A stretch of 64,000 nucleotides of DNA from Sporosarcina ureae DSM 2281 (GTDB lineage Bacteria; Bacillota; Bacilli; Bacillales_A; Planococcaceae). Where the stretch lies: positions 1 to 64,000 of the forward strand of contig NZ_AUDQ01000006.1 of the NCBI RefSeq assembly GCF_000425545.1, written 5' to 3'. Each line of letters begins with the position of its first letter. The stretch's first letter is position 1. A model generated the notes under the pieces. The model saw nothing but the letters and a program-made list of their open reading frames with translations, had not been told where the DNA came from and made no database searches. The translations under genes and the position numbers were made by a program. Shown here in pieces: positions 3,547 through 34,997 of this stretch.

Positions 3547-5514
3547 ATGGATAGTGAACGAGTTTTACAAGTAGCGGCGAATAGTAAACTTATTTATCCT
3601 AGTGAAGAAAAGGCGCGCTCGACTTCGATCGGCAGCGCAGAAGCTTTCCAAGAACTTCTCCGGCAGTCCCAGGAAGATCCGGCTGCATTTTGGGATCAGC
3701 AGGCCCGTGAGCTCGAATGGTATGAACCGTGGACAGAGACGATCAGAGGCACGCTCCCTGACTTCAAGTTTTTCGTTGACGGCATTACAAATCCGAGCAT
3801 CAACCTACTCGACCGGCATATACATAACGGTGCCGGTAACCGGACGGCGCTCATTTGGGAAAGCGAGAACGGCGATTCGAAGTTTTACACGTATTCGATG
3901 CTTCTTGCGGAAGTGAACCGTTTTTCCAATGTGCTTCGGTCGTTCGGCGTGAAAAAAGGCGATTGTGTCGCGATTTATCTGCCAAACTTGGCGGAAGCGG
4001 TCATAGCGGTGCTCGCGTGTTTCCGTGTCGGGGCGATTTATAACGCAGTCTTTTCGGGCTATTCCGAGCGCTCTTTGTCCGATCGGCTGGAAAGCTTTGA
4101 ACCGAAAATCATCATCACAGCGGATGCGACAGTTCGCCGCGGCAAAGAAATCCGTTTGAAAGAAAAAGTCGATCAAGTGGTGCCGTCTACTTCTTCAGTT
4201 GAAGCGATCATCGTCGTCAATCGCATGGGAATCGATATCGATATGCAGGAAGGCCGCGATTACTGGTGGCATGAGCTGACGGAAAAAGCGAGCATCCATT
4301 GCGAACCGGAGCGACTTGAAGCGAATGAAAGCGGCATCGTTTTCTATACGAGCGGCACGACGGGCAAGCCGAAAGGGATCGTGCATTCAGGGACGGCATT
4401 CGTCGTGCAGAACTATGTCTACGCAAAATACCATCTCGACCATCGCGAAGACGACGTATTTTGGTGCACGGCGGATATCGGCTGGCTGACGATGCATATT
4501 TGGGGCATCGTCGGATCTCTTGCGAACGGCGTCACAACAGTCATTTGCGAAGGGGCAATCGATTATCCCGAGAAAACACGTTTTTATCAAATCATTGAAA
4601 AATACCGTGTCAATAAATTATTTACCGCTCCGACTGCGCTGCGCATGTTGAAAAGCATGGGCGAGAAGCCGATCGAGCAGTTTGACTTATCATGCCTTGA
4701 CGTGATCGCACTCGTCGGCGAGCCGTTCGATGCGGAGACGTGGCACTGGACATATGAAGTGCTCGGCAAGAAAAAAGTCTATATTAACAACACTTGGGGG
4801 CAGACCGAAACAGCCGGCTCGCCAATTGCAGGAGCAGCATGGCTGACGCCGATGAAACCGGGCTCTTCCGGCAAGCCGTTTATAGGCGCGGTGTTCGATG
4901 TCGTTAATGAAGCCGGCGAACCCGTGAAAGCCGGGCAGCTCGGTAACTTAATCATTAAAAAGCCGTTTCCGATGCTGTGCCGAACGATTTGGAGAGAGCC
5001 GGAACGTTACTACGGTTCATACTACAGCCAAGTCGACGACAGCTACTACGCAAGCGATCTCGCGCTAATCGACGAAGACGGCTATATTTGGGTAGTCGGC
5101 CGTTCCGACGATGCGTTCAACGTCGCCGGCCACCGTTTAAGCACAATGGAAATGGAAAGCGCTGTGCTCGAAAGTGCAGGCGTAGCGGAATGCGCGGTCA
5201 TTGGCGTGCCGGATGAAATTAAAGGAGAAGTGCCTCTAGTTTTCGTCTGCCTTTCTGAAGATGCAGCTGACGGGCAAGAAGTAGTAGAGCGGATTCAAGA
5301 AAACATCATCCGCCAGATCGGAAAAATTGCCCAGCCGAAAGAAATCGTCATAACCGACTCTTTGCCGAAAACGGTGAGTGGAAAAATTATGCGCCGCCTG
5401 ATTAAAGAAATCGTTACGACAGGCAATGTCGCAGGTGATGTGACGGGGCTTGAAGATCCGTCGACAGTTGCAGAACTTCAGAGCGTCATGGAAGCGAAAA
5501 CTGTGGGCAAATAA
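3547..5514 (+). CDS. Acetyl-CoA-synthetase-like acyl-CoA ligase with enlarged acyl pocket
   Basis: This is a 655-residue AMP-forming ligase of the acetyl/propionyl/acetoacetyl-CoA synthetase branch. An ACS N-terminal region covers residues 20-75. The phosphate-binding loop is TSGTTGKPKGIVHSG (about 268-282), and the adenylate motif is WGQTETAG (about 418-425). A hinge and C-terminal domain follow, ending in PKTVSGKIMRRL with the catalytic lysine. In acetyl-CoA synthetases the adenylate motif reads WWQTETG, and the second Trp closes the acyl pocket. Here it is Gly, which in this family allows longer or branched acids. I therefore propose isovalerate or acetoacetate rather than acetate as substrate. 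B. subtilis has a different ligase family member (YngI) at this place in the operon, so no symbol is given. Confidence 0.8.
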   Translation: MDSERVLQVAANSKLIYPSEEKARSTSIGSAEAFQELLRQSQEDPAAFWDQQARELEWYEPWTETIRGTLPDFKFFVDGITNPSINLLDRHIHNGAGNRTALIWESENGDSKFYTYSMLLAEVNRFSNVLRSFGVKKGDCVAIYLPNLAEAVIAVLACFRVGAIYNAVFSGYSERSLSDRLESFEPKIIITADATVRRGKEIRLKEKVDQVVPSTSSVEAIIVVNRMGIDIDMQEGRDYWWHELTEKASIHCEPERLEANESGIVFYTSGTTGKPKGIVHSGTAFVVQNYVYAKYHLDHREDDVFWCTADIGWLTMHIWGIVGSLANGVTTVICEGAIDYPEKTRFYQIIEKYRVNKLFTAPTALRMLKSMGEKPIEQFDLSCLDVIALVGEPFDAETWHWTYEVLGKKKVYINNTWGQTETAGSPIAGAAWLTPMKPGSSGKPFIGAVFDVVNEAGEPVKAGQLGNLIIKKPFPMLCRTIWREPERYYGSYYSQVDDSYYASDLALIDEDGYIWVVGRSDDAFNVAGHRLSTMEMESAVLESAGVAECAVIGVPDEIKGEVPLVFVCLSEDAADGQEVVERIQENIIRQIGKIAQPKEIVITDSLPKTVSGKIMRRLIKEIVTTGNVAGDVTGLEDPSTVAELQSVMEAKTVGK

Positions 5515-21343: not shown

Positions 21344-21404
21344 TCATAAGCATGAGAACACTTTGAATCAGCAGATGAATCGAAGTGTTACTCATTTCTA
21401 TCAT

Positions 21405-21478
21405 GTCCTAGTAGCTCAGCTGGATAGAGCAACGCCCTCCTAAGGCGTAGGTCGGGGGTTCGAATCCCTTCTAGGACG
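21405..21478 (+). tRNA. tRNA-Arg (anticodon CCT)
   Basis: Full cloverleaf: acceptor GTCCTAG with CTAGGAC and discriminator G, D arm GCTC...GAGC, anticodon stem ACGCC/GGCGT with loop CTCCTAA (anticodon CCT), and TTCGAAT in the T loop. CCA is not encoded. It reads the rare AGG codon. Confidence 0.97.
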
Positions 21479-21481
21479 TTA

Positions 21482-21506
21482 TTTGGTTTCTTTTACTGAA
21501 ACCAAA
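21482..21506 (+). terminator. Hairpin after tRNA-Arg
   Basis: TTTGGTTTC pairs with GAAACCAAA around a 7-base loop just after the tRNA. No T run follows, so it may be a 3' processing hairpin rather than a full terminator. Confidence 0.5.
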
Positions 21507-21793
21507 CACTTTGATAGTAATCAAATCCATGAAATTGATTACTAGAATGGACCTTTAAATTGACTTAGCAAATACTAGGTCTATAAAAAATAACTTGCCA
21601 GTGTTAGAGTAATAAACATAAACACATATCTCAGCAGAGCCACCAAACCCTCTAAGATATTGCCATAGTTAACCTCGTCTAGTAAAAACAGTTTATAAAA
21701 GTGGAGATTTGATAAAACGTTACACTTTATAATCACCTTAAGTATTAACAGTATATATAACCTATTGTCACGCTTTACGACTTCAAATCCCCA
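21507..21793. other. Intergenic stretch between tRNA-Arg and the His/Cys gene
   Basis: No gene, tRNA or clear repeat seen. It lies between the two copies of the tRNA sequence and may be leftover element DNA. Confidence 0.5.
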
Positions 21794-21827
21794 AAAGGCA
21801 ATTACTCAATTTAAAGTAATTGCCTTT
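21794..21827. terminator. Bidirectional terminator of the His/Cys repeat gene
   Basis: A 13-base perfect stem (AAAGGCAATTACT with its complement) and an 8-base loop; a TTTT run follows on the minus strand, 3' of the small gene. Confidence 0.8.
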
Positions 21828-21890
21828 CCATTTCTTATGCTTTGTCTGCGCAGACACATTTATTATTTTACCTTCTTACTCTCATTGCAT

Positions 21891-22103
21891 TTACCAGAAA
21901 AAGTTAAAGCGTCTGCGATTACATCTTCTGCATTGACACCTGAACTCATTTTTACACTTAAAATCACGGTTACAGTGGTGTTTATTATCGTGGTGTTTAA
22001 AGTCACGGTCACAGTGGTGCCTATTATCGTGATTTGATCTTACTTCTCGACATTCACAATCAAACTTTACCCGATTTCCCCGTCTATTATTTTTAAAACA
22101 CAT
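21891..22103 (-). CDS. Small His/Cys-rich protein with 13-residue tandem repeat
   Basis: A 70-residue, highly basic protein. ATG 22103 sits seven bases after a perfect GGAGGTG, which makes it a likely gene despite its length and odd composition. Two tandem 13-residue units, NHDNRHHCDRDFK and HHDNKHHCNRDFK, are followed by a Cys/Arg-rich tail (CQCRRCNRRR). The repeats are also clear in DNA as 39-base units. It contains eight cysteines and eight histidines. Metal binding or a spore-coat/crust role is plausible, since small His/Cys repeat proteins occur in Bacilli coats, but neither is shown. It lies between tRNA-Arg and a decayed copy of the same tRNA. Confidence 0.72.
   Translation of the reverse strand: MCFKNNRRGNRVKFDCECREVRSNHDNRHHCDRDFKHHDNKHHCNRDFKCKNEFRCQCRRCNRRRFNFFW
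21919..21997. repeat. Two 39-base tandem units inside the His/Cys gene
   Basis: Two imperfect copies of a unit whose core is CACGGT-T/C-ACAGTGGTG followed by TATTATCGTG. They encode the two 13-residue protein repeats on the minus strand. Limits are approximate. Confidence 0.7.
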
Positions 22104-22254
22104 ATCTTTTCACCTCCATTACGCTTTTTATGCCGGCCGACCTTATACTCATTATATGAAAAGGTAATGTAGATAATTGGACAAATACTCTAGTTCGAAT
22201 AAAAAGAGTAAGCTTGAATGTTACTAAACAAGTATTCCTGTAGGCGCTGTATTC

Positions 22255-22339
22255 ACGACGCTTCAAGTACAGCAGCACAGCTTGAAAGAGCAACGCCCTC
22301 CTAAGGCGTAGGTCGGGGGCTCGAATTCCTCCTGGGACG
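22255..22339 (+). pseudogene. Decayed tRNA-Arg(CCT) copy
   Basis: From 22287 to 22339, 49 of 53 bases equal the 3' part of the intact tRNA-Arg, including an unbroken 33-base block through the anticodon arm and variable loop. The 5' part is degraded, so the acceptor stem cannot form against CTGGGAC. A preserved 3' half next to a decayed 5' half is the pattern of an attachment site left by a tRNA-targeting integrative element, but a simple tandem duplication that decayed is also possible. Confidence 0.8.
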
Positions 22340-22368
22340 CAATCAAGACAGTTAAGAAATTTAAATAG

Positions 22369-22408
22369 CGCTATAAACGTTGTAATAACAGCGTTTATAG
22401 CGTTTTTG
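22369..22408 (+). terminator. Terminator after the tRNA pseudogene
   Basis: A perfect 11-base stem (CGCTATAAACG with its complement), a 12-base interval that can pair further (TTG with CA), and a TTTTT run. Confidence 0.8.
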
Positions 22409-22469
22409 TTTTTGGAGAAGACGTTAGAAAACGATAGGAAGTAAAGCCATTAAACACATTTACTCGATC

Positions 22470-30168: not shown

Positions 30169-31245
30169 TCAGAATTGCTGATCTTGATTATATGGTTGAT
30201 CTTCTGCATATTCTCCGTCTTGTACGCTTCCATCATCTACGGATTCATCCTCTAATGATAAAAACTCTCGTAATGCTTGTTTGTTCTGTTCTAAATTAAT
30301 CTCGAGAACAGCACCAACGTCTGTGCGTAGGTCGCCAAATGATCCTTCTACGGGAATACGCAGTGATTCCATTTCGTTATTCTTGCTGCCAGTCAACATA
30401 CCTTTAGCAATGGTAAAGATAGTTTTACTGTCGATGTTCGTATCAATATACGGATCAATAACACCCATAAGTTTCGGTATATTGACGAGTGTCTGCAAAC
30501 TCATCGCTTCGTCTTTCAGTTTCGCTAGAGCTTCTTGCTGACGTTCCACACGACCGTAATCACTATGGATGTCGTGGCGGAATCGTACGTAACCAAGTAA
30601 TTGATCTCCGTTTAATTTTTGTTGGCCAGGATAGAGCGTTAAACCTAGGCCGTGTGACATTTCATATGGAATATCGACTTCAATACCGTCAGGCGCAATA
30701 ACATCGACGATTTTAGAGAAACCTTCGAAATTAACAATTGCGTAATATTGTACATCCACATCGAAATTATGCTTAATCGTTTGTCGTACTAATTCAGGTC
30801 CGCCAAGTGCATAAGCGGCATTAATCTTTTCCATACCGTGACCTGGAATGTCGACGTATGTATCACGCATTAGAGAGATCAACTTTACTTTGTTGGTTGT
30901 TTGATCGTAGTGGCCAATCATTAAAGCGTCTGAACGAGTTTCATCTTCGTCGCCTCTTGCGTCATCACCGATCAACAATACGTTAATTTCTCCAAATTGT
31001 GATTCGCCACCTTCAAAGTCGTCAAAGGTGGAATTGCTATCAGAAAAGGTATTACTACTATCGCTAAGTTCTGTATGTATTTCGTTTGTGTTGCCGTCAT
31101 TCGCAAAGGACAGGCCGTTTGAATATTGTGCAGCGACATATCCGCCACCCGCTAATAGTAGCAAAGTGAATACCAAGAATAGTACCCGTTTATATTTTCT
31201 TTTAAGTTTTTTCTTACGACGCTTTCCAGTTTCTCTGTTTTCCAT
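30169..31245 (-). CDS. LytR-CpsA-Psr (LCP) family glycopolymer ligase
   Basis: A 358-residue membrane protein with a Lys/Arg-rich cytosolic head, one membrane segment (about 20-39) and an extracellular LCP domain from about residue 85. LCP landmarks are NVLLIGDDARGDEDETRSDA, LISLMRDTYVDIPG, KINAAYALGG and GYVRFRHD...DYGRVERQQ, which carry the Arg and Asp residues that bind polyprenyl phosphate. It attaches wall teichoic acids or similar polymers to peptidoglycan. ATG 31245 lies eight bases after AGGTG; GTG 31254 is inside that site. An acidic C-terminal tail ends the protein. It is downstream of, and likely co-transcribed with, the Xre-DUF1232 gene (23 bases apart). Confidence 0.92.
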   Translation of the reverse strand: MENRETGKRRKKKLKRKYKRVLFLVFTLLLLAGGGYVAAQYSNGLSFANDGNTNEIHTELSDSSNTFSDSNSTFDDFEGGESQFGEINVLLIGDDARGDEDETRSDALMIGHYDQTTNKVKLISLMRDTYVDIPGHGMEKINAAYALGGPELVRQTIKHNFDVDVQYYAIVNFEGFSKIVDVIAPDGIEVDIPYEMSHGLGLTLYPGQQKLNGDQLLGYVRFRHDIHSDYGRVERQQEALAKLKDEAMSLQTLVNIPKLMGVIDPYIDTNIDSKTIFTIAKGMLTGSKNNEMESLRIPVEGSFGDLRTDVGAVLEINLEQNKQALREFLSLEDESVDDGSVQDGEYAEDQPYNQDQQF

Positions 31246-31268
31246 TAATGTCACACCTACTCATCTGA

Positions 31269-31904
31269 TTATGAACTCTTTGTTAGAACGCTTGAAGCAA
31301 TTTGGACTGCGATTGCATCATCCAGATATCCGACCGCAAAAATGTAGTCCGGGATGACATCCACAGGAACGATAAAGTACAATAATGCGCTACCGATAAC
31401 GGTTAGATCACGTTTTGCAACGTCTTGCATTGTAAATCGTGTAAATAATTCTTTTATTTGATCGACGAATGGACCTACTCCGCCTGCCAATTTTAACTTC
31501 TTATCGAAGTCATATAAAATTCTTTTTCTTCCTTCAGTTGTCTGAACATACGCTTCGTAACTTGTAAGTTGAAGTTTAACTTTTTCAATGGAGATATCCG
31601 CAGATAGAAGTTCTGAAGTATTGACCAAATGTTGAATGGTTTCATCATAACCAGAACGTATCGTGTGTTTATGATCAACCGGATAGCCTGCCGCCTGAAG
31701 TAATTTGGCTAAAGGGATTTCCAAAATGATCGCAAACTTCTCCAGGTGGTCTAGTGTTGCTTTGCGCTTGTCGTTGATAATCCTAGAGATAGTTGAAGTA
31801 TCAATATCTGTAAGTTCGCTTAGTTTGCGCATGGACAATGAACGTTCATCTAAAACAGTACGCAATAATTGCCCGATAGACAGACCAAGACTACCTTCTG
31901 ACAT
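31269..31904 (-). CDS. Xre-type regulator fused to a DUF1232 (YkvA-like) domain
   Basis: This 211-residue protein has an N-terminal Xre helix-turn-helix (about 10-65, SMRKLSELTDIDTSTISRII) and a C-terminal DUF1232 hairpin (LYFIVPVDVIPDYIFAVGYL, about 170-189, then DDA), which is probably membrane-associated. The middle is helical. ATG 31904 follows GGAGGGGGA. The fusion of a DNA-binding head with a membrane-type tail suggests a membrane-tethered regulator, perhaps of the LCP gene downstream; this is inference. Confidence 0.87.
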   Translation of the reverse strand: MSEGSLGLSIGQLLRTVLDERSLSMRKLSELTDIDTSTISRIINDKRKATLDHLEKFAIILEIPLAKLLQAAGYPVDHKHTIRSGYDETIQHLVNTSELLSADISIEKVKLQLTSYEAYVQTTEGRKRILYDFDKKLKLAGGVGPFVDQIKELFTRFTMQDVAKRDLTVIGSALLYFIVPVDVIPDYIFAVGYLDDAIAVQIASSVLTKSS

Positions 31905-32326
31905 GACACTCCCCCTCCATTTCTACGACAACGGTAAAAATATCTACTTCTTTAAAAGAATAAATGTTTGTTGGCAAATTGTCAACAAGTATAGGCGAGG
32001 ATCATTTTTTCAAAAAACGTCTGGATTTGGCTATATAAAATTTTCAGAATCTCAATCCATAGGTTTTATCGTGTCTTTAATTTATACTAGGTACATAAAT
32101 AGTAAAGGAAGACGTCAAACGATAGCGGACTCTCCTAAACCAAGCGATAAAGAATGGATAGAGAATTTGACGAAAGATCAGTAATAAGTGACACAAGGCG
32201 ACCATACATAAGCATTATTCTTGAATGAATAATAGGATACGTTTGAAAATGGCATCTCTATCGATGTCGCACTAATTGAACCATTACTCTCAAGTGACGA
32301 TTAGTATGACTCACAGTGCGGTTGGC
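31905..32326. other. Intergenic region with gene debris
   Basis: Promoter region of the minus-strand pair, then scraps of plus-strand coding sequence. One, around 32250-32310, reads NGISIDVALIEPLLSSDD before a stop and probably belongs to the same broken gene as the next entry. No intact gene. Confidence 0.45.
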
Positions 32327-32569
32327 CAAGCTTCACCCGACCAATCGTTCCGGAAATACTGACGGAATATATTGATAAAAGTTTCAATATGGTGCGAACT
32401 GAAGTGACAAGCCGTGCAGGAGATAGGCATCTCGTACACATTTTCGAAGACCGGCTGAAAGATCGCGGCGGATTAGGTAAGTGTATCAACAGCGCATCGA
32501 TCAATTTTGTACTGCTTGGAGAAATGGAAGCCAAAGGTTACGGCTATCTGACAAGTTATGTGAAATAGT
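32327..32569 (+). pseudogene. C-terminal fragment of an unidentified gene
   Basis: An 80-codon open stretch on the plus strand has the look of true coding sequence (RPIVPEILTEYIDKSFNMVR through EMEAKGYGYLTSYVK, then TAG) but no start codon with a ribosome binding site. Upstream pieces of the likely same protein are out of frame and broken by stops. I do not recognise the family. A terminator follows directly, as expected for a true 3' end. Confidence 0.5.
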
Positions 32570-32587
32570 ATACTCGTAATATAATAG

Positions 32588-32622
32588 AAGGAAAGGGGCC
32601 ACTTGGTTGCCTTTCCTTTTTA
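32588..32622 (+). terminator. Terminator after the gene fragment
   Basis: A 9-base stem (AAGGAAAGG with CCTTTCCTT) followed by TTTT. Confidence 0.7.
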
Positions 32623-32733
32623 CACGATAAGGTGAAATACGAGTCCTCGCAGTATATGAAGATGGTCATATACTATTTATCGTTTAAGAAACTGTAAACG
32701 GGATTGGGTATGCCTGTTTAATCAGCACATAGT

Positions 32734-32877
32734 ATGATAAAACTTGGCGGTGTAGGTATTCATAACGTTGATGAGCGTGGTAAACTCTATTACGGTGAAG
32801 CGTCTAAAGTTTCAGTAAGCTCTTCTTCAAAAATAGGTACGACGGTAATGATTCGACTCGGTAATTCAGTGAAGTGA
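32734..32877 (+). pseudogene. Relic of a LytS-type sensor kinase C-terminus
   Basis: A 47-residue stretch with VGIHNVDERGKLYYGEASKV and KIGTTVMIRL. This matches the end of the ATPase domain of LytS/YehU-type kinases (pattern G-I-G-L-x-N-V-x-x-R-L...G-x-G-T-x-V-x-I). No rest of the kinase remains and no ribosome binding site precedes it. Confidence 0.6.
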
Positions 32878-32955
32878 GCTTTATTCGTCATGAAAAAGAA
32901 CTGATTTTTAGAGAGGTATTCGCATATAACAATAAAAAAGAGGGGAAGGGACCCA

Positions 32956-33582
32956 ATGCAAGAAATGATAGCGAGATGCAGGTTAGAAGTTGAAGGCATT
33001 TACAATAAATTTGATGCGAGTCATGATCTCGATCATATTAATCGCGTAATGAAAAACGCAGAGAAAATTTTAGCGACTGAGCCAGGTGCGGATGAACTAG
33101 TCGTACGTTTAGCAGTCCTGTTGCATGATGTAGAAGATGCGAAATATAAAGAGGTGCATGAAGCAACTACGGTGGAGCTTCTTGAAAAAATAGGTGCGAC
33201 ACAACAGATTACAGATAATGTGATATCTGCGATTGATAGTGTGTCATTCAGTGGCGGCAACGCAAAAGATATTACGTCGATTGAAGGCGCTATTGTCAGA
33301 GATGCTGATCGTTTGGATGCCATTGGCGCGGTTGGAATAGCGCGTGCATTTGCGTTTGGTGGAGCGCGTGGCAGGAAACTTTATGATCAGCAAGAAGAAG
33401 CTCGAAAGGATATGTCAGTGTCAGAATACCGAAAAAAAGAAACGGCTACGGTTACGCATTTTCACGAGAAGTTATTATTGCTGAAAGAATTGATGGTCAC
33501 GAGAGAAGGCACGCGTTTGGCGAAAGAACGACATGACTTCATGGAAGATTTTTTGCATCAACTAAGAAAAGAGATTGATTGA
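32956..33582 (+). CDS. HD-domain phosphohydrolase (YedJ-like)
   Basis: A 208-residue HD-superfamily protein. The metal ligands are visible in order: SHDLDHINRV (about 22-31), LLHDVEDAKY (about 55-64) and IVRDADRLDAIGAVGIARAF (about 114-133). ATG 32956 follows GAGGGGAAGG. Members hydrolyse phosphate esters or nucleotides; the physiological substrate is unknown. A monocistronic gene amid relics. Confidence 0.9.
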   Translation: MQEMIARCRLEVEGIYNKFDASHDLDHINRVMKNAEKILATEPGADELVVRLAVLLHDVEDAKYKEVHEATTVELLEKIGATQQITDNVISAIDSVSFSGGNAKDITSIEGAIVRDADRLDAIGAVGIARAFAFGGARGRKLYDQQEEARKDMSVSEYRKKETATVTHFHEKLLLLKELMVTREGTRLAKERHDFMEDFLHQLRKEID

Positions 33583-33667
33583 AAATTAGTTTGCCAATTC
33601 TGAACTCGATAGGATAGAATAAAGTAACTAGCAATACTAATCTATCCAATAGAGAAAAGGTGACGTC

Positions 33668-33766
33668 TTGGACAGAAATAATCGATTATTCATCATTACA
33701 CTCGTTGTCATCGCCTTGTTTACATTAGGTGGATTTGCAGTACAAAAAGGATTCATCACATTTTAA
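33668..33766 (+). CDS. 32-residue single-pass membrane miniprotein
   Basis: A short frame that starts at TTG 33668 behind AAAGGTGA. It has a charged head (MDRNNR), one membrane helix (LFIITLVVIALFTLGGFAV) and a short tail. A terminator follows 20 bases later, which supports expression of a small transcript. Function unknown. Confidence 0.55.
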   Translation: MDRNNRLFIITLVVIALFTLGGFAVQKGFITF

Positions 33767-33785
33767 TACGAAAACGTATATTCAG

Positions 33786-33819
33786 AGCTCATCGGTCATA
33801 ATAGATCGAGAGCTTTTTT
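33786..33819 (+). terminator. Terminator after the membrane miniprotein
   Basis: An 8-pair stem with one bulge (AGCTCATCG with CGAGAGCT) and a 12-base loop, followed by TTTTTT. Confidence 0.65.
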
Positions 33820-33855
33820 AGTTAAAATGAAAGTTCAGTTTTGATTCTTAAAACG

Positions 33856-33890
33856 AAACCCGGAAATCTACAAGAGATGTCCGGGTTTTT
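33856..33890. terminator. Terminator between the miniprotein and the opine dehydrogenase operon
   Basis: A 9-base stem (AAACCCGGA with TCCGGGTTT) followed by TT on the plus strand. It lies six bases beyond the opine dehydrogenase stop and can serve that minus-strand operon. Confidence 0.7.
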
Positions 33891-33896
33891 AAATAG

Positions 33897-34997
33897 TTAT
33901 GATGTTAGATTCTTTAATTCCTCTGCAGTTATACCCATATCTTTCAATGTTCTGCCCGTCTTAAAATAATCGGTATCATTATACGCAGAAGCTATATGGA
34001 TACAAGACTCTACGATCGGTACACGGATACCAACTGCTTGGGCCAATTCGAAGCATGGAACAAGTAAATAAGGTACATCTTCAGTCACATATCGGTTTTT
34101 CGAACTGTTCGGAGCACTGTTTATTTTACCGTGTGTTGTAGAATCACGATTGAAATCATAGACCGATTTATAGTTTGAGCCATACAAAGCATTCATTGCT
34201 TGTAATTCAGTCCTTAATGAAAATCCAAGAGCTGCTCCAACAGCGAGCCGTTCTTGATCCATCTTGGCTGCCGCATTTGCAGTAGCTGGACTACAACAGT
34301 CCCGATAATAGTTGAAATCTCCATCAAAGTTTTCGAGTAGTCCCATATTTAATGTAGTCAATAAAGGATGTCCACCAAAATTAATGTTTTCCAATCCTGC
34401 GACTATTGGGTTATCTAAAAATTCTACAGGAACTGGGAGAGATTCTGTAATCAGCTGCTTCACTTCATCAGTCGCATTCTCTGATGGGAAAATGCTGACA
34501 GATAAAAACTCTTTCAACCCCATAATGGTTAAAACACCAGGCTCTACAATGCGTGTTGCCCATGGAATACTGATCCCGTCCACAAATGTAATATCTTTAT
34601 CCTTTTGATCAGATTCATTTTTCATGCGATTCAAGACCAATCCACCGTAGTTTCCTGGCATTATGAAAACAACTTGTCCATCTTGCAAGTGAGGGAGCAT
34701 TTGTTCAAATAAAAGTTCTTGTGCGAATGAAGGACAAATCATGATAATCATTTCAGCAAACTCCATCGCTTTTTTTATATCAGTTGTCGCATGAGTGATT
34801 TCCTCGAAACCTGGAAACATCATCTCGGCTCCGTGATCTTTCGAAAGTGCTTTAATTCCGCCTTGTTTATTTACCGCTTGAATCTGTGTATCGAACTGAG
34901 GGGAATCGTATAGACAAATACTATGTCCAAGTTTTGATAAATGATAAGCTGCTGTCAAGCCGCCGTTACCTGCACCGATGATTGAAATTTTATTCAT
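33897..34997 (-). CDS. NAD/NADP octopine/nopaline (opine) dehydrogenase family protein
   Basis: This 366-residue protein has an N-terminal Rossmann domain (ISIIGAGNGGLTAAYHLSKLG) and a helical C-terminal octopine dehydrogenase domain. The conserved His shows in NFGGHPLLTTLN (about 206-217), and a Y-G-S-N-Y-K-S-V-Y-D-F stretch near 270 is also family-typical. Family members reductively join an amino acid and a keto acid, or run the reverse. ATG 34997 follows AGGAGG. It lies 18 bases after the YfcC transporter gene in one operon, so it may act on an imported amino acid or opine. The substrate is inferred only. Confidence 0.85.
   Translation of the reverse strand: MNKISIIGAGNGGLTAAYHLSKLGHSICLYDSPQFDTQIQAVNKQGGIKALSKDHGAEMMFPGFEEITHATTDIKKAMEFAEMIIMICPSFAQELLFEQMLPHLQDGQVVFIMPGNYGGLVLNRMKNESDQKDKDITFVDGISIPWATRIVEPGVLTIMGLKEFLSVSIFPSENATDEVKQLITESLPVPVEFLDNPIVAGLENINFGGHPLLTTLNMGLLENFDGDFNYYRDCCSPATANAAAKMDQERLAVGAALGFSLRTELQAMNALYGSNYKSVYDFNRDSTTHGKINSAPNSSKNRYVTEDVPYLLVPCFELAQAVGIRVPIVESCIHIASAYNDTDYFKTGRTLKDMGITAEELKNLTS

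Follow-up and report, generated by a model that had tools for sequence, protein, structure and literature searches.

In the Islander definition, as given in the part of the source that we cite, a tDNA island combines a tRNA end fragment, an integrase and a length of at least 2 kb (PMC4383910). Two further arrangements resemble the locus described here: bacterial tandem tRNA duplicates and pseudogenes, in which a whole-gene paralogue decays when it is redundant, and variable gene slots that are flanked by a tRNA but have no resident integrase. The locus lies in DNA of Sporosarcina, S. ureae group, within a stretch of 64,000 nucleotides that we call the window (genome G000, contig C6). Like an Islander-class island, it shows an intact tRNA, a downstream copy in direct orientation, an insert between the two and empty sites in relatives (strains P2 and P34), but the cited part of the definition (PMC4383910) describes something else in all three respects: at this tRNA-Arg(CCT) locus the copy originated as a whole gene rather than an end fragment, there is no integrase, and the segment has a single gene and 861 bp instead of 2 kb. 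Like tandem tRNA duplicates, the locus has a whole-gene paralogue in tandem that decayed when redundant, and the genus also has intact tRNA-Arg(TCT) pairs; the difference is that the CCT copies are parted by a separate small gene. The gene content from tRNA-Arg(CCT) to the conserved backbone differs by species, as in a tRNA-flanked slot; unlike in a hotspot, the near relatives of the window showed no mobile genes in this slot. Title searches of the open-licence literature returned no paper on the locus itself, and that literature yielded none on Sporosarcina ureae with tRNA-Arg or on recombination between tandem tRNA genes.

We read 18 tRNA-Arg(CCT) loci, i.e., that of the window and those of 17 relatives. 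The named genomes are Sporosarcina sp. P32b (G001), P2 (G075), P34 (G023), P13 (G012), an S. ureae MAG (G090), S. aquimarina (G067), S. cascadiensis (G027), S. obsidiansis (G068) and the MAG cluster2_bin.35 (G082); others are given by handle. The intact tRNA-Arg(CCT) gene occupies positions 21404..21479 of the + strand (ARAGORN; Rfam RF00005, 67.4 bits at 21405-21478; genome search). No other intact CCT gene was found in the genome, and ARAGORN calls no other tRNA in the whole window. A SET-domain gene lies upstream of it. In a search with the SET protein, tRNA-Arg(CCT) adjoins the SET gene in nine of 80 loci, all from Sporosarcina, and in a tenth a tRNA-Arg TCT gene lies 3 kb off. Directly 3' of the tRNA is a 9-bp hairpin (21482..21506, +; fold z -2.9), which lacks a good T run and is a weak candidate for a terminator, and the stretch 21480-21560 recurs 3' of the tRNA in P32b only, among the flanks of 15 relatives.

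The repeat of this tRNA downstream is real. The sequence-only reading had reported that 53 bases of it recur some 860 bases further on with 49 identities and a ruined 5' half. Read directly, the final 53 bases of the tRNA and the copy indeed differ by four mismatches, and a repeat search pairs 21410-21478 with 22271-22339 (69 nt, 88%) at a spacing of 861. A genome-wide blast gives the copy an E value of 2.5e-19, which excludes a chance match. The 5' strand of the acceptor stem is destroyed, and the D-arm half is still recognisable beyond the 53-base block (AGCAGCACAGCTTGAAAGAGC vs AGTAGCTCAGCTGGATAGAGC). The decayed whole-gene copy spans 22263..22339 (+), of which 22271-22339 are clearly alignable, and has the same orientation and isoacceptor as the intact gene. 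It no longer forms a tRNA: ARAGORN does not call it, its Rfam score (26.2 bits) is below the gathering score of 29, and its folding (z +1.3) gives no tRNA fold. A search for a further att copy downstream had been proposed as a check; no third copy of the tRNA segment exists on the 169-kb contig at E <= 10. The copy is followed by a flank (22340..22414, +; fold z -6.5) with a strong 17-bp terminator at 22367-22404 and then by a gene of the penicillin-amidase family (Pfam PF01804).

The approximately 790 bp between tRNA and copy contain one ORF (21891..22103, -), which encodes a protein of 70 aa rich in His, Cys, Arg and Asn and built of 13-aa repeats. A terminator-like hairpin at the 3' side of this His/Cys gene (21794..21827) is conserved in P32b and P13. 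Gene and terminator do lie between the two tRNA sequences, as had been stated. The protein matched no Pfam, NCBIfam or PHROG family. Between the window and P32b, its gene has a dN of 0.066, far below the dS of 0.319, which indicates purifying selection. The promoter and leader (22104..22209, -) are strongly conserved: GTCCAAT is followed after 17 nt by CATATAATG and then by the palindrome-like GGTCGGCCGGC. This pattern (GTCCAAT-17-CATATAAT(A/G) plus a GGCYGGCCRGC-like palindrome) recurs in 10 of 11 upstream regions and is absent in G014. The palindrome lies between the -10 and the start codon and is possibly an operator or an mRNA element. The -10 is of a CATA type, which we take to resemble mother-cell sporulation promoters; a spore-coat-type or sporulation role for the protein would be a guess. 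The left part of the insert (21554..21890) is non-coding and alignable with P32b and G082. Its distance to P32b (0.095) is below that of rpoB third positions (0.183), and this slowly diverging part may hold a 3' UTR or a small RNA. The spacer between the conserved core of the cassette and the copy (22210..22262) is matched in P32b only.

The nature of the copy becomes clearer by comparison with P32b, which has the same insert and tRNA copy, the latter decayed differently. In the P32b copy, undetected by an Rfam tRNA search at E up to 1, the D arm and the 5' strand of the acceptor stem (GTCCCAG) survive and the 3' strand is gone; in the window copy it is the 3' strand (CTGGGAC) that survives and the 5' one that is gone. 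The two copies match tRNA positions 2-67 and 7-75, respectively. Combining the 5' strand of P32b with the 3' strand of the window restores 7/7 pairs of the acceptor stem, compared with 4/7 and 3/7 in the single copies. The whole insert aligns between the two genomes at 85-89%, so the copies are orthologous, and orthologous copies that kept complementary ends point to a complete tRNA-Arg gene in their common ancestor. By these alignments, the copy began as an entire tRNA gene, whereas an attR would be a 3' fragment, and its decay was independent in the lineages of the window and P32b, the two that retain it.

Occupied and empty sites both exist, as the sequence-only reading had proposed to check. 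The insert adjoins tRNA-Arg(CCT) in three of the 18 loci (the window, P32b and G082), with a second tRNA in the first two and none found in G082. In P2 and P34, a single tRNA is followed directly by the orthologue of the window's post-copy flank (E 2e-16 and 4e-7 in flank-only blastn); in the flanks of the other 13 relatives this sequence gave one 15-nt match only (G076). In G018, the sequence from 60 nt past its single tRNA equals that of P32b starting 23 nt past the copy. These junctions show that the unit that comes and goes is the insert plus one tRNA, bounded by the two tRNA copies. A tree of rpoB, alaS, gyrB and a second gyrase-B-type gene (9.7 kb; six-genome clade) has the topology (G001,((G000,G018),(G029,(G023,G075)))), with 94/94 support for the branch separating P32b, which is unresolved with rpoB only. 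The dS between the window genome and P32b is similar for the SET gene (0.256), rpoB (0.286) and the His/Cys gene (0.319), which suggests that the segment has been diverging for about as long as the genomes. Given the four-gene tree and the matching dS, the segment was probably present in the ancestor of G000 and P32b and lost in G018, in G029 and in the lineage of P34 and P2.

We thus favour, as the probable explanation, an old two-gene tRNA-Arg(CCT) locus with a decayed second copy and a unit that can be deleted by recombination between the repeats. We infer the course of events and the mode of recombination as follows. In the ancestor, the His/Cys transcription unit would have stood between two full-length tRNA-Arg(CCT) copies in direct orientation, at the edge of a variable slot that is nearest to the tRNA. 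As a redundant gene, the second tRNA has decayed separately in each of two lineages. As direct repeats of about 70 bp, the two copies could recombine (by a RecA-type process or slippage) and delete the second tRNA with the insert, leaving a single tRNA joined to the old downstream flank. This would be the simplest route to the arrangement of P2 and P34. The second tRNA could have originated either by tandem duplication or by arrival with other DNA. Several points count against this explanation as a whole. None of the 18 CCT loci has two intact CCT copies, the functional pair that the sequence-only reading had set against its own att interpretation; intact pairs occur only at the TCT paralogue. 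The deciding branch of the tree has only 94/94 support, and three losses are needed. The parental allele of the copy cannot be told, because the window and P32b copies disagree at the informative 3' positions. The insert of G082, without a second tRNA, needs a further loss or a transfer. Finally, the duplicated unit itself is not seen, since P32b alone has a match to the 50 nt that precede the copy.

The insert could instead be the relic of a small integrative element, whose tyrosine integrase would have acted at the 3' half of the tRNA, restoring the tRNA and leaving an attR before being deleted. This is close to the attL/attR pair of a tRNA-targeting element that had been read from the window. 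It would explain an insert bounded by a tRNA and its copy, with empty sites in relatives and a GC content of 0.338 against 0.409 for the window, and in G011 a partial repeat of the 3' side (query 28-76) lies 1.8 kb beyond the CCT gene. We nevertheless consider it unlikely. The ancestral copy was full length, the segment measures 861 bp, it diverges from P32b as the genome does and is thus old and inherited, and no tyrosine integrase domain (PF00589) was found on the window's contig or within 10 kb of tRNA-Arg(CCT) in any of 18 genomes. A tblastn search of the inserts of the window, P32b and G082 for integrase relics, with the tRNA-Arg-targeting integrase of G086, gave nothing better than E 5. 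An origin from a phage or plasmid was rejected: among the matches listed (phages, best 10 of 433, 2% of the query; plasmids, best 10 of 103, 12-15%) none holds most of the query, and coverage extends little beyond the tRNA and its copy. A transposon was also discarded, as the repeats listed by a search included no inverted ones at the insert ends. The att interpretation is therefore disfavoured.

We also dropped a candidate integrase remnant beside the CCT tRNA of G011, an ORF that by eye looked like an integrase C-terminus; it matched no PHROGs family and had no tblastn match in phages. Elsewhere in the window genome, contig C19 has four tyrosine-recombinase domains in a row (30613-34365).

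The tRNA-Arg(TCT) locus provides a control within the genus. It is a true integrase target there, a point in favour of the integrative relic. In G086, tRNA-Arg(TCT) is followed by a 14.8-kb island whose integrase (PHROG integrase, E 3e-29) lies immediately behind the tRNA and whose distal repeat covers just tRNA positions 37-76 (40 nt, 100% identical). The CCT locus is unlike this att pair, with its 3'-only 40-nt repeat and its integrase next to the tRNA. A search of 81 sequences found the G086 integrase or its relics in 17, and no CCT locus was among these. The survey of the TCT locus covered 72 loci in 62 genomes (four loci without an Arg tRNA) and revealed full-length tandem tRNA-Arg(TCT) copies within 6 kb in eight genomes (G002, G003, G005, G013, G026, G071, G074 and G078). 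In G003, G005 and G013 (first pair), the copies start approximately 0.3 kb apart, with approximately 0.24 kb between them and no integrase match; in G002 and G026, the copies have an integrase relic between them, so that duplication and integration can be mixed there. Both tandem duplication of the whole gene and a genuine integrase island are hence seen at the TCT locus, and the tandem pairs speak for the two-gene explanation of the CCT locus.

Two other features were seen around these genes. The G086 island (contig C1; L244, 4045-18903) has two tyrosine-recombinase-like ORFs and, by eye, reverse-transcriptase-like and Fic-like ORFs. An ORF of 40-49 aa (MGKYQL...) recurs in several Sporosarcina, next to a tRNA-Arg gene or in the gap between two of them; in S. 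aquimarina this is the CCT locus, in the others the TCT locus (L047 4638-4784, L122 4291-4437, L120 4176-4295, L049 924-805, L243 8402-8283).

The locus of G082 bears on another way of acquiring a second tRNA. DNA of a sister lineage organised as tRNA-Arg followed by the cassette could have entered by a single homologous crossover at the recipient tRNA, with the expected product host tRNA, cassette, second tRNA and host flank. G082 has the same insert at the same junction, right after its tRNA and in the same orientation, and its His/Cys gene is closer to those of the window and P32b (dS 0.55 and 0.38) than its rpoB is (1.08 and 1.12), which suggests exchange with a G082-like strain. However, the non-coding distances of the insert from the window to G082 and P32b (0.338 and 0.095) are in about the ratio of the genome distances (0.204 and 0.070), which points to inheritance, and the tRNA alleles give a mixed answer. 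We scored 15 native tRNAs as donors of the copy and dropped the approach: the window copy favours G082 and the P32b copy favours G000, G075 and G074. We regard such a crossover as quite unlikely.

The His/Cys unit is found in other contexts. Of 261 genomes of the family, 19 have relatives of the protein, and all 19 belong to this genus; a single-sequence search finds such relatives in 11 of 68 genomes of the genus. In most relatives compared, the unit lies in unrelated genomic places, with a variable number of 13-aa repeats, and it occurs elsewhere without a tRNA in P13, G076, G086, G084, G014 and G071/G009/G002. This would be expected if a tRNA pseudogene and a wandering gene were chance neighbours and their bracketing meaningless. 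We find this very improbable, because insert and copy are jointly absent in more than one lineage, where the post-copy flank then follows the tRNA. Beside the unit of P13, a dispersed repeat of approximately 65-100 bp (L123, about 5010-5112) is matched at least six times in the window genome (on contigs C16, C13, C9, C1, C21 and C3).

At a larger scale, a variable slot of 0.3 to 5 kb separates tRNA-Arg(CCT) from a conserved backbone, a block of PAP2-type and LCP-type genes as judged by appearance. The gap between tRNA and block is approximately 0.3 kb in G089 and G090, 0.5 kb in G074, 0.6 kb in S. aquimarina, 0.7-0.8 kb in S. cascadiensis and G082, 3.7 kb in P2 and P34, 4.1 kb in G018, 4.6 kb in G076 and 5.1 kb in P32b; in the window genome and G029, the 8 kb compared did not extend as far as the block. 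The contents of the gap differ and include an acylase, dehydrogenases and the His/Cys unit. It is distinctly doubtful, though conceivable, that paired tRNA-Arg genes of Sporosarcina, CCT and TCT alike, are integrase-free recombination sites, with small one-gene units lodging between the two direct copies and popping out when these recombine; if so, tRNA pairs would be a slow cassette-exchange device.

The locus is largely ordinary in kind and mildly instructive. A tRNA with a degraded copy, the standard signature of a genomic island, can stem from an old tRNA duplication; here, each of two independently decayed copies supplied one end of the lost gene, and setting them side by side turned the reading round. 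It thus offers a caution, of modest interest, on island signatures made of tRNA fragments. For the organisms themselves, it marks a slot of variable gene content that adjoins tRNA-Arg(CCT) in the S. ureae group, as well as a family of small Cys/His proteins restricted to the genus.
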